In this document: piece after piece, positions 14 to 8,054 of the stretch
How positions within the stretch are numbered: position 1 is the first letter of the stretch
How the letters are laid out: the number at the start of each line of letters is the position of its first letter
Origin: Helicobacteraceae bacterium
GTDB lineage: Bacteria > Campylobacterota > Campylobacteria > Campylobacterales > SZUA-545
Assembly: GCA_031275395.1 (NCBI GenBank)
Contig: JAISOU010000084.1
Coordinates: 1-50,561, forward strand
DNA length: 50,561 nt
Reading direction: 5' to 3'
The notes under the pieces: model-generated
The model's database searches: none
Seen by the model: the letters and a program-made list of their open reading frames with translations, nothing else
Told to the model about the DNA's origin: nothing
Program-made: the position numbers and the translations under genes

Positions 14-1845
14 CTAGGGCGCGACTGTCTGCCAATATAACGTGGGATAAGGATAACCGCTAAAAGCTCCCCAAACCCAAGGATTATCCTTGTCGTTTCC
101 AAACTTCCAACCTAAACCGCTCTTATAAGTCGATTGCGATTTAAGCTCGTCGATTGATTTAGACGTTCCGTGATTAGCGGGAACGCTTTTGTCTGAAAAA
201 CTGCCGCGATTTGTGGTCATATCCACAAACGCGAAGTTGTTTTGAACGTCGCTGGCTTCTGCATTTTTATTTCCAGTAGATTCGCTTGCGCGACTCATAT
301 CAATAAATCCGACCGTGTTATTTAGGTCAATAAATCCAACTATGCGATTTACGTCTAATGATCCGTTAGCCTTTTGATTGATTGCGGCGTTGTTTTTGAT
401 CGTAGCATAATAAACAAACCCCGCAATACCGCCGACTTGATTGCCTGTTCCTCTAATGTCTCCCGTCGAATAGCTATTGGTTATGTCGGAGGAAATAACA
501 ATATATCCCGCGATACCGCCAACCGAGCTTTTTCCGCTAACGTCTCCCGTAGAGTAGCTATTGGTTATGGAGGAACCAAAAATATGCCCCGCAATACCGC
601 CAACCTGATCGCCTGTCGCGCTAATGTTTCCTATAGAGTAGCTATCGGTTATGTAGGATGCACCGTCAACATGCCCTGCAATACCGCCGACTTGATCGCC
701 TGTTGCGCTAATGTTTCCTATAGAGTAGCTCTTGGTTATGGAGGAGTTGTAACCAACGTATCCAGTGATGCCGCCGACACTCGACACTCCGCTAATGCTT
801 CCCACAGAATAACTGTTGGTTATGGGGTTGCCGGAAGTCGATCCAGCGATACCGCCGACATATTTACTTCCGCTAACGTTTCCCGTCGAATAGCTATTGG
901 TTATGGGGGAGCCCCCGCCAACGACCCCAGCAATACCGCCGACCGTTTCGTCTCCGCTAACGTTTCCCGTAGAGTAGCTATTGGTTATGGAGGATCTGCC
1001 GAGAACATACCCCGCAATAGCGCCGACACAGCTTTGTCCTTGAACTCCGCCTTTGCTATTATCGATCTCTACGCCAAGATTTCTGATTTGAACATTCTCG
1101 CGGATATTTTCAAAAAGACCAACGTAATTGGTTGATGGTCTATTGATCCATAAGTTTCGGATTGCATATCCGTTACCATTGAAAATACCTGTGAAGGGTT
1201 TAGGGTCGTCGCCAATAGGATTCCAGCCCGCCGAATCGTCTAGCGTAGCGCTTGTTAGATTTATATCGTTAAGCAGAATATATTTGCCAGATAGATCGTT
1301 ACGAACGTTATTTAGTTCCGCTTCCGTCCGTATTTCATAAACCTTTGGAATGGCGTAGAAATTAACGTTTTTCTTTACTTTATAAGAAGTTTCGCCGATA
1401 TGATCGGTTGTATCGCTTATTAGATATAGAGCCTTAGCGTTTAGACCAAGCTTTGTTTTTAATTGAGCGATACTGATCGGGCTATCGCCTGAACGTTTAT
1501 CGATCCGTTAAAATCAAGATTAGCGTCGTAGAAGCTAACTTTATAGGTTGCGACTATAGGCTGAACGTCAATCTTTGGAGTTTCTGCGTCGGTAATTGTA
1601 GGCGATTGATTGATCGGGCTATTCTCTTGAACGCTTATCGATCCGTTAAGATCGGGGTTAGCGTCGTAGGAGCTAACGCCCATTAAAGTTAAAATTAAAG
1701 CGAAAATTAAAAAGAAAATTGAAGCAAAAGCTAAAACGAATAAAAGAGCAACGAGGCTAAAAACTCTTTTTAACGTTTTGCGGTAGAACATAGTCGCTTT
1801 CTCTATCAACCGTTTTAAGGAAGAAACTAACGGGAGTTGAGACAT
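14..1845 (-). pseudogene. GLUG-repeat surface/secreted protein, split by a 1-nt frameshift
   Basis: Two reading frames together form one protein of about 610 residues. The 5' part (1845 to 1459) starts at an ATG behind AAGGAG and encodes a basic N-terminus with a long hydrophobic segment, probably a signal anchor. The 3' part (open from about 1507 to 14) has no start codon near its opening. It encodes about eight GLUG-type repeats of roughly 30 residues, each with a VGGIAG core followed by ITNSYSTGN-like sequence, and ends in a GW...PYPTLYW tail typical of GLUG proteins. The break lies near 1486-1490. A degenerate 62-nt unit occurs twice in the gene (about 1479-1539 and 1615-1676), and the second copy is one base shorter exactly there. 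GLUG repeats are known from bacterial surface adhesins and peptidase-associated proteins. The function here is unknown. It is either a pseudogene or a contingency gene. Confidence 0.75.
1479..1676 (-). repeat. Pair of ~62-nt direct repeats inside the GLUG gene
   Basis: The segments at about 1479-1539 and 1615-1676 are imperfect copies, both encoding a YDAN-D-NGSI-VQ peptide unit. The copy nearer the GLUG domain lacks one base relative to the other, which breaks the reading frame. Confidence 0.7.
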
Positions 1846-1994: not shown

Positions 1995-3690
1995 GTGAAG
2001 TGGCGCAAAGCGCAAAGGAGGGCGGAAATCCAAATATACTACTACCGATACTATTTGGATTATAAAGGGACGCTTAACAACGACGAAGGCTTTGTGGCGT
2101 TTTATTCTAGTGATATTGATATAGGGGTAGCGTTATATCCCACCGTAGCGTCATACGATCTAAACGACGACGGCTTGCCCGATACCGTATTTATGGATTG
2201 GCGCGAACTTGTCGGCGTTGATGGCGGCGCAAGGGTATATGCTATGGCAATCATAACCGAAGCCGACACGCTCAATCATAAGCCGATCTTTACTAAAAAG
2301 ATAACTGGCTATTTTCTGACGAGTTACGGCACACACAAACCAAGAGCGCCGAAAATCGCCGTTAGAAAAAGCGGCGCGGAAAAAATAATTGAAAGCGAAG
2401 GGTTTTGGATTTATTATAGCAACGACAAGTTTACTTTCATCATAGGTAATAATTTCAAAGACGCCCTAACCGATCTGGTCGTCGGAGATATTAACGGAGA
2501 CGGGATAGAGGACGTTGTAAGAATAGCTGGCATTCTTTATGGCGCTGGTTCTAATATCAGGCAGAGGATCGTTTCGAGCATCGACGAGCAGGGTTATCGC
2601 GATATTAGCGTCTATAACAACCCAACCCTTGTCCTCCCCAATGTCGAGACGAGCGGTAACGAGCTTATATTAAAGTTCAAAGAGCATCAGGTTCAGTTTA
2701 GCAATCCTCGTATTATCGCCGTATTAACCTCTCCTCCTTATTGGGAAGGCAGCGATAACGACAGCGGAGGAACCTCTTTAGGATCGTCGATTAGCAAAGG
2801 CGATAGCGAGAGCCACGCCGTTGGTATGAGCGTGGGTATTGCTGTAGGAGCGGAAGTGGACGCTTTGGCTTTTGGATCGCTAAAAATCATGGCTAAGATC
2901 GATTCGAGCCTTCACAAAGGCTGGACTAAGAGCAAAGAGATTACCGAATCTGTGGGAGATTCTATTAGGAGTAGGAGAAGATCTTGTGATCTTTAGCTCC
3001 GTCGCTTACGACGTTTATTATTACGAAGCAGTCGATTCTAATTTAACGCGCTACGATAACGTAACGCCGCTACTTAGAAAAGCGTCGCTCGTCTCCGTAG
3101 CCGTTCCGCGTCAGGCAAAGATATTCAAGCTTGAGAAAGACACCTATAACGAGTGGGTAGGAAAGCATAACGACGAAACGGGCGATACGGGATATATTAT
3201 TCCTAGCGGAGAGGATAACGCCACAGCCGTAAAGTTTGGCATAGAGCATACGCTCGGTAATCCGCTCAGCTATCCTAACGAGACGCAAAAGAACCTTTTT
3301 CAACTGCTTGCGTTTGGAAGCGGGTTCTTTTCCACTGAGACTCAGACGGTTGGAACAAGCGATACTGGAGCCGATACTATCACGCTTTCCGAAGCGATAG
3401 GAGAAAGGACGACTTGGGATTGGAGTACCTCTGCGGGAGTAGAAGCCGAAGCGAGCGGCGGATTTTTCGCTAAAGCTACCGTTCAAACCTCTGTTAGCGT
3501 GGAATACGAGGGTAGCACATCGAGCACGATTACAAACTCGACGGAGATAGAGAGGCAAGTGCCTCATATATCGAACGCTTATTGGAAGGACAACCAAGGT
3601 TCGCGCTTTGAATGGGGATTGATGTCTTATCCCGTAAAGCACGGAAACCAGAAATACACGGTGGTAACCTATTGGGTTGAGGGGGATTGA
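1995..3690 (+). pseudogene. FG-GAP/VCBS-like calcium-binding repeat protein, frameshifted
   Basis: Two overlapping frames (1995-2996 and 2986-3690) read as one protein of about 564 residues. The first frame contains two Asp-rich loops, DLNDDGLPD and DINGDGIED, which match the calcium-binding loops of FG-GAP/VCBS integrin-like repeats. The second frame continues with a Ser/Thr-rich, beta-strand-like sequence ending in TYWVEGD. Reading passes smoothly from ITESVGDSI to GVGEDLVIFSS if one base near 2966-2969 is removed, so a single indel broke the gene. The only start visible is a GTG at 1995 without a convincing ribosome site or signal peptide, so the 5' end may also be lost. The C-terminal part was not recognised. 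It was probably an exported protein; a toxin or adhesin role would be a guess. Confidence 0.65.
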
Positions 3691-5215: not shown

Positions 5216-6610
5216 TTATTTTTTGCTTTTTGTTTTCAAAGTCGCCAAATCGTAGAGTAGCCCGTCGATAGTTCTAATGCCGAACAATTTAGCGTGAAGT
5301 TCTCTAGTAACGTCTATTGTGATAATTGACGTATCGCCGTGCATTAACTGATTTCTAATTTCCTTTACCCTTCTAAGTCTCATTTTATATATATCGTCTT
5401 TATTTTTATATCTAGCGATAATGTCTATGGCGGCGTCCAAAGTGTTGATGGGCTGTTTATTTAAGGAGATCTTTTTTGCTTGCTCCATAGCTATACGCTC
5501 AAAACCAACGCACCATCCATATAGGATTAGCAACATATATTCATGCCGTATATTGTAGAAGTAATACGATTCGGCGATTCGATGCAATATATCGCGCGAA
5601 ATACTTTTTTCAAACTCCGCGTCAAACTTTTCAATTAAAGTCTTAATTTCAACTTCTTTCTTAAGATCTTTTTCATTCTCTTCGCCTTCCCGTAATTTTT
5701 CCTCCGCTGATTTTAGCTTCGTTTGGAGCGATTCGTTCTCGGATTTTAAGTGCGTTATTTCGTCTTCTAATTTAGCCTTTTCTATTAAAAGATTTCGTTC
5801 TTCGTTGCTGGAGACGCCGTTTTCTTCTATTTTATCAAGTTCTTTTTGGGCTTGCGCTAACATATTTTCTTTTTCGGATAGCTCTTTATTGCCCGCTTCT
5901 AGCTTATTTTTTATTTCGTTGATTATTTTTTTATCGTTTTCTATCTCGAGTTCCTGCGCTTTTAATTTTTCTTGCGCTATTTCTTTTGTTTGCGTTAGTT
6001 CATTGACATACCTTTTTATTCGTCTTATAATAACGTAGAATAAGAACCAAAATATAGCTAACGGAATATAAAAAGTTGTACTCCGTAGAAAGTTATAACC
6101 GATAAATTTATCAAACCATTCAGAGATAGTAAATTCGGATTTGATGCAATCGGGTAATATCGAAAGGCTAAGCGATCTGATAATACCTACCCATAATTTT
6201 GGCTTAATATAATATCCGTAAATAAAGTTATGATCGCCTGACTTTATTGTTATTTCGCTTCGCTCATAATAGTCGGCTCTGTCCGTATAGTCGTATTGAT
6301 AGACGACATTGCTATTTTTATTGTCTATTATAGTTAAAGAAACTTCCGATTTATCTAAACTATAATCTGAAAGTTTACCATTTTGAAATTGCTGTTCAAT
6401 AAAATTGTAATGCATTGTATTTATTTGCTTCATTTTGCCTCTATTGTAACCGCCGTAATACGCCTCGTAATCTATAAAAACCCATACGCCAAACGCAAGA
6501 ACAAGCGCTAATATAAACGAGACAATGAAATCGTGATTTAACGCGCGAGCCAACCAATAAACGTGTCGCCCTTTTAATGTTGTTGGAGACGTAACGCCTT
6601 CTTTTGCCAT
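5216..6610 (-). CDS. Membrane-anchored coiled-coil protein with C-terminal HEPN-like domain
   Basis: The protein has 464 residues when started at the ATG behind AAAGGA; a TTG eight codons upstream is less likely. A first membrane helix lies at about residues 28-48. An extracytoplasmic segment of about 130 residues follows, then a second helix at about 175-197. A long Glu/Lys-rich coiled coil spans about 205-335. The C-terminal domain of about 125 residues is helical and carries IRNQLMHGD, matching the RNxxxH signature of HEPN domains, many of which are RNases in toxin-antitoxin, abortive infection and CRISPR-linked systems. The two helices place the coiled coil and HEPN-like end in the cytoplasm. 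The stretch is AT-rich compared with core genes, which suggests transfer. A defence or stress role is inference. Confidence 0.75.
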   Translation of the reverse strand: MAKEGVTSPTTLKGRHVYWLARALNHDFIVSFILALVLAFGVWVFIDYEAYYGGYNRGKMKQINTMHYNFIEQQFQNGKLSDYSLDKSEVSLTIIDNKNSNVVYQYDYTDRADYYERSEITIKSGDHNFIYGYYIKPKLWVGIIRSLSLSILPDCIKSEFTISEWFDKFIGYNFLRSTTFYIPLAIFWFLFYVIIRRIKRYVNELTQTKEIAQEKLKAQELEIENDKKIINEIKNKLEAGNKELSEKENMLAQAQKELDKIEENGVSSNEERNLLIEKAKLEDEITHLKSENESLQTKLKSAEEKLREGEENEKDLKKEVEIKTLIEKFDAEFEKSISRDILHRIAESYYFYNIRHEYMLLILYGWCVGFERIAMEQAKKISLNKQPINTLDAAIDIIARYKNKDDIYKMRLRRVKEIRNQLMHGDTSIITIDVTRELHAKLFGIRTIDGLLYDLATLKTKSKK

Positions 6611-7033
6611 AGTCGTTCCTTTAGCTTTTTGCAATGATATCAGACAAAACTTAATTATTTTGACTTAGTTTTTGCAATGCGCGGGTAGCGGCGGGCGGGG
6701 AAGGCGTTTTAATGAAGGCGCAACAGGGCAGCTCGCAAGGCGCAAAGACGAGCGTGATAGAATAAAGACGTTTTAAGGAATGGCGTAAAAAGTTTTTATC
6801 GTTTTGCATTTTTATTGCGATCGCGATCCGTTTGTAGCCGCTAACCGCGATCTATACGCCCAAATGAGAAGCGCCACTTGCCCGCAAGTTCCTCATTTCC
6901 GCATAGCGCTCGCCATGCCGTATAAAGCCGCCGCCCGCGCAAGAGGCGGGGTAGCGCAAAAAAAACCGCCGCTAAAAACTATTGCGAATCATCGCCAGTC
7001 GCAAAGCGTCAAAACAATGCAACGTCGGCAATG
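6611..7033. other. Intergenic stretch, no gene seen
   Basis: These 423 bases separate the HEPN-like gene from the DUF488 pair. A 98-codon open frame at 6804-7100 lacks a ribosome site, has a composition unlike the neighbours and runs into the real DUF488 gene. Nothing else was recognised. Confidence 0.5.
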
Positions 7034-7471
7034 TCAGAGGTGTGCAATTTTAACGTCGCTTAATTTTTCCGCAAAATGCTCGGCTACTAATCTCCTATGA
7101 CAAAACTTTGGTTCAGGCTCGCTACATAAAAGAACGCTATCGACCATTTCGCTTTTTTTTATTAAGTTAAAAACTTTGCGTTCGTTCACAAGCGCCTTAA
7201 AACGCTCTTCATATACTTTCCAATCAATTTTTTTATTTTTATAGTCGGACAATATGCTTTCGGTTGGAACTAATTCGGGCTTATGGATATATTCCCAATC
7301 TAAAATTGTTTTCAGAAAATAGCGCAGATCGTCTTTTTTTGAAAATGCGGCTAATTGTGAAAGATTATTCAAACGAATATCAATTAACCGTTTCGCTCCG
7401 CTATTTTTCAATAACGTGAAAAACTTTTCCGCCCCTTTGCCCGCAAAACCAATTGTATATATATTATTCAT
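7034..7471 (-). CDS. DUF488 family protein (second copy)
   Basis: This 145-residue protein belongs to DUF488 (YeaO-like). It begins MNNIYTIGFAGK and contains the family signatures DIRLNN and SQLAAFSKKDDLRYFL. Near the C-terminus it has CSEPEPKFCHRRLVAEHF, with paired Cys and CHR residues. The start chosen is the ATG that overlaps the end of the upstream DUF488 gene by eight bases, which indicates translational coupling. DUF488 proteins are rhodanese-like in their ends, but their reaction is not established. The gene is the last of a three-gene cassette with another DUF488 gene and a broken DuOB gene. Confidence 0.85.
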   Translation of the reverse strand: MNNIYTIGFAGKGAEKFFTLLKNSGAKRLIDIRLNNLSQLAAFSKKDDLRYFLKTILDWEYIHKPELVPTESILSDYKNKKIDWKVYEERFKALVNERKVFNLIKKSEMVDSVLLCSEPEPKFCHRRLVAEHFAEKLSDVKIAHL

Positions 7472-8054
7472 CGTATGCCTCTCCTTTTTTGTATGCAATT
7501 TTTGCCGAATATACCTCATAAACCGAATCTAATGCATCTTCGAGAAATAAGCCGCCTATACCTTGCTCTTTAAGCATTTTTTGCTCTAGGTTTTTTTGGC
7601 TCAGTACTGAGCCGTCAAACAAAATATGATTAGCGTTAATTTGTAAAGCGCCGACTATATTACGAGCTACCAAAAGGAACCTATGGCATTCTAGCGGATT
7701 CTTTTCGGTGCACATCAGCGCTATATTTTTGCTATAGCTATCAATAAACTTTTCTATTTTTTCAATCCCTTTATTAAAGATAGCTAATTTGCTTGTTTTA
7801 TGAAAATCAACGCGATTATCCGTGTATGCTTCTGGCTCGTCTCGTCTTGCGCCAAACTCTGCGCCCATATGCAGATATTCAATATCATATTTACGCAAAA
7901 AAGCCGAAAGCGATTCTTTGTTGAATTGCGGAGCGTATCTACTATACGGTTGCGAGCGCACGTCCGCAATCATTGTAATTTTATTTTTCTTTAGAGCCAT
8001 AGCAAAAGCTTCTAACGTATGGACTGAACACCCTATTGTAAAAACTTCACCCAT
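7464..8054 (-). CDS. DUF488 family protein (first copy)
   Basis: The 196-residue protein starts MGEVFTIGCSVHTLEAF and carries the DUF488 signatures ADVRSQPYSRYAPQFN, HMGAEFGARR and CTEKNPLECHRFLL. It is related to, but diverged from, the DUF488 protein encoded directly downstream, so the two probably act as a pair or a heteromer. The start lies only four bases after the stop of the broken DuOB gene, so all three formed one operon. The biochemical role is unknown. The frequent pairing of DUF488 with DuOB proteins (my recollection of the families) suggests nucleic-acid-related stress or defence work. Confidence 0.88.
   Translation of the reverse strand: MGEVFTIGCSVHTLEAFAMALKKNKITMIADVRSQPYSRYAPQFNKESLSAFLRKYDIEYLHMGAEFGARRDEPEAYTDNRVDFHKTSKLAIFNKGIEKIEKFIDSYSKNIALMCTEKNPLECHRFLLVARNIVGALQINANHILFDGSVLSQKNLEQKMLKEQGIGGLFLEDALDSVYEVYSAKIAYKKGEAYDE

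Follow-up and report, generated by a model that had tools for sequence, protein, structure and literature searches.

A membrane-anchored coiled-coil protein with a HEPN-like C-terminal domain in one genus of Helicobacteraceae

The window analyzed here is a 50,561-nucleotide stretch of DNA from a Helicobacteraceae bacterium (contig JAISOU010000084.1), in which one gene (5216..6610, minus strand) encodes a 464-residue protein arranged as transmembrane (TM) helix, outer domain, second TM helix, coiled coil and HEPN-like domain. Computation reveals a membrane anchor, a coil, a HEPN-like fold, invariant active-site residues and purifying selection. We regard it as somewhat probable that this protein is an inner-membrane, signal-linked HEPN ribonuclease whose outer domain would control cytoplasmic RNA cleavage.

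The open reading frame runs on the minus strand from an ATG at 6610 to a stop at 5216, exactly as an earlier note on this DNA had placed it (5216–6610, 464 residues). A ribosome-binding-like AAAGGAAC precedes the ATG, and because of aaaggaacgactATG this start is preferred over a possible upstream TTG start at 6634. A full-length orthologue in a second genome of the genus (G008) shares 65–66% identity, with a dN/dS of 0.24 between the two, indicating that the frame is a functioning gene rather than a chance one.

The HEPN-like domain spans residues 339–464 (5219..5596, minus strand), as supported by the domain model, VIA-align and sub-threshold HEPN profiles. Since a fold search with the whole protein was filled with coiled-coil matches, residues 315–464 were modelled alone from the nine-row alignment (pLDDT 91.2, pTM 0.87). 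Among 68 Foldseek candidates aligned to this model with VIA-align, HEPN proteins made up 14 of the 15 best entries (Z 10.9 to 6.8, where helical bundles with Z below ~13 may share just a common arrangement), including HEPN-MNT toxins, 1wwp, YutE, sacsin, LsoA and Csm6; HI0074 (1jog) and 1wty are likewise taken by us to be HEPN proteins. The best match was 8xeh (Z 10.9, 3.2 Å over 116 residues), and the sacsin HEPN domain (3o10) aligned at Z 8.8 (3.3 Å over 117 residues). The lone exception among the best 15, Roquin (4qil, Z 9.0), presumably carries a HEPN-like part of its own, and the first clearly unrelated fold in the list was a designed bundle at Z 6.3. Foldseek itself returned nothing significant for the domain model, either against the PDB (best E 0.58) or against viral models (best E 1.2), and a PDB sequence search yielded coiled coils only with the full alignment and nothing relevant with the HEPN part.

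According to passages of Anantharaman et al. 2013 (PMC3710099), HEPN domains are characterized by Rx4–6H at the end of helix 3 with a polar residue after the arginine, an acid within helix 2, and extra sequence inserted between that helix and helix 3. All of these traits are present in our model and alignment: helix 2 (356–381) contains E371 (5498..5500, minus strand), which is E or D in 9/9 sequences; an insert helix (391–402) follows; and helix 3 (406–423) ends in the RNxxxH motif (RNQLMH, residues 419–424; 5339..5356, minus strand). This agreement with the published description raises the assignment above a mere bundle match, and the predicted domain resembles a HEPN fold, as the earlier note had proposed for the C-terminal helical domain containing IRNQLMHG (residues 418–425). 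R419, N420 and H424 are invariant in all nine homologues, including paralogues of 25–30% identity, so that the R and H of the motif, whose loss in close homologues would have spoken against that proposal, are conserved throughout. The residue four positions after the helix-2 acid is lysine in the seven sequences of one branch of the family (the core branch, described below), as in the Ex3[KR] motif, and methionine in both sequences of the window branch.

None of the nine members reached any Pfam cut-off, a sequence-family criterion that is not decisive for a fast-evolving superfamily such as HEPN. HEPN_MAE_28990 (PF18737) matched 8/9 members of the domain alignment weakly (best E 0.0011, all below the curated cut-off), and sub-threshold matches were also found to a HepT-like profile (1/9, E 0.0014) and to the RiboL-PSP HEPN profile (1/9, E 0.016). 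Run over the gene's whole own genome at E ≤ 0.1, PF18737 gave a single, sub-cut-off match, at E 0.012, to the core paralogue. In hhalign comparisons with nine HepT proteins, the RN...H motifs fell in register in a weak alignment (7.9% probability) and out of register in a forced global one (0.2%). A Cystatin match (Pfam E 0.016) was rejected, being below cut-off and confined to one of nine members.

HepT toxins provide the best structural matches (8xeh, 8yuf, 6m6u, 6m6w, 5yep, 7bxo and 8xdj) and share the RX4H motif. The window protein differs from the HepT of HEPN-MNT (type VII) pairs in that it lacks the tyrosine of RX4HXY, has no MNT gene and is membrane-anchored. In the portion of the literature covered by PMC7641770, the RX4HXY tyrosine of HEPN-MNT toxins is the residue that accepts AMP.

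Conservation of the motif also bears on whether the domain cuts RNA at all. It could instead be a non-catalytic RNA-binding or docking module, holding RNA or a partner at the membrane, a reading that we consider unlikely. Some HEPN domains are thought to work without catalysis, although in the relevant part of PMC3710099 this is proposed for motif-less ones, and a non-cutting protein would be easier to tolerate as a growth-compatible, constitutively inherited product of a housekeeping gene run. The retention of the motif's R, N and H, along with the acidic residue of helix 2, across branches only 25–30% identical is, however, what active HEPN families show, and not inactive ones.

The membrane anchor consists of two TM helices called by a Kyte–Doolittle scan: TM1 at residues 28–46 (6473..6529, minus strand; hydropathy 2.86 over 19 residues), within a modelled helix at 27–52, and TM2 at residues 177–195 (6026..6082, minus strand; hydropathy 1.87), at the start of a modelled helix at 174–264. 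The N-terminus is short and basic, and basic residues lie before TM1 and after TM2; by the positive-inside rule, both ends would therefore lie in the cytoplasm and the intervening loop of ~130 residues outside. The two helices expected to flank an extracytoplasmic domain were thus recovered, with the outside placement following from charge distribution. In the model, the putative extracytoplasmic α/β domain (residues 47–177; 6080..6472, minus strand) comprises a helix, four strands and further helices over ~130 residues, with segment 151–160 below pLDDT 50. Family searches gave this domain no match to any known family, of sensors or otherwise. A vicinal Cys-Cys pair occurs in the outer domain of 7/7 core copies (residues 108–109 in locus L002, for example) and 0/2 window-type copies. 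This distribution suggests a redox-sensitive input for the core copies; as a guess, the pair might respond to a redox or envelope signal.

Between TM2 and the C-terminal domain lies a coiled coil of two helical arms (residues ~200–264 and 270–332; 5615..6013, minus strand), supported by heptad scores, the model and VIA matches, and modelled as an antiparallel hairpin. In the window protein, the a/d heptad scores of both arms exceeded those of shuffled sequences (p 0.0 and 0.033; 1000 shuffles each), and with the arms scored apart, p fell below 0.05 for arm 1 in 6/9 sequences and for arm 2 in 8/9. In the window protein, no one heptad period ran unbroken through residues 201–335 (p 0.19), and this test failed in 8/9 sequences, because of the break between the arms (265–269 in the model). 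In VIA, residues ~199–334 matched coils made of two helices, among them the p85 inter-SH2 domain and Kif21A, and a Pfam match to ArlX (E 0.00028, residues 179–332) was taken as a coiled-coil match. In the monomer model, TM2 continues as one 91-residue helix (174–264), which is followed by a short break and a second helix (270–332) running back. As both arms have ~63 residues, this model would bring the HEPN domain back to the membrane, and a coil folded back in this way need not hold it at a distance. The long coiled coil named in the earlier note is thus real. A dimeric parallel coil in place of the intramolecular hairpin is possible.

These features are compatible with a plausible sensor-to-RNase reading. 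The predicted topology would place the domain between the TM helices outside the inner membrane, where it may read some condition, and TM2, running directly into the helical coil, would relay the change to the cytoplasmic C-terminal HEPN domain. Two HEPN domains would then pair, and R419 and H424, helped by E371, would cut RNA, so that RNA near the membrane would be lowered or reshaped by cleavage; for a member of the HEPN superfamily, the predicted endoRNase activity would be metal-independent. HepT HEPN RNases act as dimers, as described in the part of PMC7641770 concerned with them, and altered geometry of the coil or the TM helices could thus move two HEPN domains into or out of register. 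Signal, transmission, dimer and cleavage are all putative steps of this scheme.

Membrane-bound HEPN proteins as such are known. Anantharaman et al. 2013 (PMC3710099, section 15) delineated three bacterial groups, proposed stimulus-dependent RNA degradation for them and likened them to Ire1. Group 1 has one WP-signature TM before a DUF4145-type HEPN domain; group 2 has a helical domain, one TM and an Abi2/SWT1-type HEPN domain; and group 3 has an N-terminal HEPN domain, two TMs and a Zn ribbon (PMC3710099). The window protein shares with these groups a predicted cytoplasmic HEPN domain joined to TM segments and the proposal that an outside stimulus controls RNA stability. Unlike all three, it has two TMs that enclose an α/β domain, followed by a coil and then a C-terminal HEPN domain, and since its layout matches none of them, it represents a new layout within a known kind. 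No description of this layout was found in the titles and abstract openings of open-licence literature on membrane HEPN proteins. A further parallel, in layout only, is Ire1, with its outer sensor, membrane passage and cytoplasmic C-terminal RNase of the HEPN superfamily (here, a predicted RNase); the KEN domain of Ire1 and RNase L is a superfamily member in the account given in part of PMC3710099. Ire1 crosses the membrane with a single TM and includes a kinase domain, whereas the window protein has two TMs, no kinase match and a coil in the kinase's place.

Homologues are found in 7/14 family genomes, namely all seven genomes of the window's genus, and none was found in the other seven, which span six genera; the named records that match are Helicobacteraceae metagenome-assembled genomes, among which isolate names such as Im510_bin14 may point to termite guts as the source. 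A full-length alignment searched against 199 genomes of the order gave matches in nine, the seven genus genomes and two with coil-only matches. The HEPN-part alignment against 397 genomes of the phylum (E ≤ 0.05) gave matches in 24, three from the genus and 21 weak ones. Soluble proteins with RN...H occurred in 2/11 non-genus loci examined among the 20 loci that the latter search gave (L031 and L039), with sub-cut-off HEPN matches in L039 and none in L031. A scan of genome contigs gave six loci, all copies of sequences already in the set from five genomes, and viral contigs yielded no relative. On the sequences available, the family appears small, stably inherited and so far limited to one Helicobacteraceae genus.

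The family divides into two branches, a core paralogue and the window branch, with 25–30% identity between them. The core branch is present as one copy per genome in the minE–dprA slot of a minD–minE–X–dprA run in 7/7 genus genomes, with a 4-base overlap of minE with X visible in L002 and L009. The gene is missing from four genomes of other genera, where minE adjoins dprA in two (G003 and G001) and another ORF lies between them in two (G012 and G013). That ORF, which has an N-terminal hydrophobic stretch (L061, 1884–3014; L062, 1865–2929), we take to be polysaccharide-deacetylase-like, and the slot would thus take different genes in different genera. The window branch is present in 2/7 genus genomes (G000 and G008), in both cases downstream of a hemE–radical SAM pair. 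In G005 this pair is followed by other genes; for G007, the closest relative, absence of a window-type copy is not proven because the contig ends after the pair. The copy in the window is thus a second paralogue that has diverged. It is patchy, and the earlier note placed the gene beside other accessory genes, but the family is not simply accessory, because the other branch is present in 7/7 genomes.

Selection differs between the parts of the core protein. Its HEPN part is best conserved, with 80–94% identity among six genomes and 64–67% to the seventh (omega 0.04–0.10 in four pairs measured), as against 47–86% (outer domain) and 47–88% (coil) in those six genomes. The window pair shows no such contrast between parts (66–69% identity, omega 0.16–0.27), and its HEPN part is conserved no more than the others. 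The pattern looks like that of a housekeeping effector whose sensor drifts, together with a diverged duplicate, rather than that of an arms-race gene.

This pattern also weighs on the suggestion, contained in the earlier note, of a role in defence or toxin–antitoxin systems, in which the protein would be a toxin or anti-phage effector that senses membrane damage or phage entry and stops growth through its RNase. HEPN domains are common effectors in such systems, as set out in portions of PMC3710099, and the window copy is patchy; the NCBIfam model DS11_antiphage also matched 5/9 members weakly (best E 0.022), as did two PADLOC CARF-HEPN models, one member each (E ~0.02). The core paralogue, however, occupies one locus in 7/7 genomes under strong purifying selection. 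No MNT antitoxin lies nearby, the genome's only NTP_transf_2 match being in an 825-residue frame of another contig, C26, and thus away from C24 and C36; the position of the AMP-accepting tyrosine is D or E in 9/9 sequences; no phage, plasmid or viral relative was found; and a Pfam scan of 20 ORFs of the window turned up no defence gene. The suggestion is thus not supported, and we consider a toxin or anti-phage function quite improbable. A role in cell division or DNA uptake, with the core paralogue translated together with MinD/MinE and DprA, its HEPN domain regulating RNA or protein partners and the window copy a specialized duplicate, is very unlikely: it draws on the constant gene run and the minE overlap, yet a common operon need not mean a common function, genomes of other genera keep minE and dprA adjacent or split by the deacetylase-like gene, and the window copy is located elsewhere.

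The signal-linked ribonuclease thus remains the favored reading, and it can be extended, speculatively and with low probability, to a bacterial counterpart of Ire1 that reached its plan by convergence: a membrane RNase sensing the envelope, fixed in the Min–DprA run of one genus and duplicated into two channels, with outer sensors that differ (with versus without the vicinal cysteine pair) and two HEPN RNases. The family offers a compact testable case, with clear soluble domain boundaries, known predicted active-site residues and natural duplicates whose outer domains differ. Because its core copy is strongly selected among housekeeping genes and does not lie in a mobile locus for defence, the family would broaden the picture of HEPN domains beyond toxins.

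Several further observations were made in the window. A TTGACA-17-TATAAT site with a 12/12 match to the sigma-70 consensus, the sole such site in the window, lies at 6003–6031 on the plus strand, antisense within the HEPN gene. An antisense promoter as a control of the HEPN gene was dropped, as the site in the G008 orthologue matches only 6/12. Two overlapping DUF488 genes (7034–7519 and 7464–8054, minus strand; Pfam E 4.7e-18 and 7.9e-21) separate the radical SAM gene from the HEPN gene, and are not at the corresponding place in G008 (L003, L010) or G005 (L075). An ORF at 1995–2996 (plus strand) with weak FG-GAP repeats overlaps one at 2986–3690 that has no Pfam match, and an ORF at the window edge (14–805, minus strand) contains GLUG motifs (Pfam E 1.9e-16).
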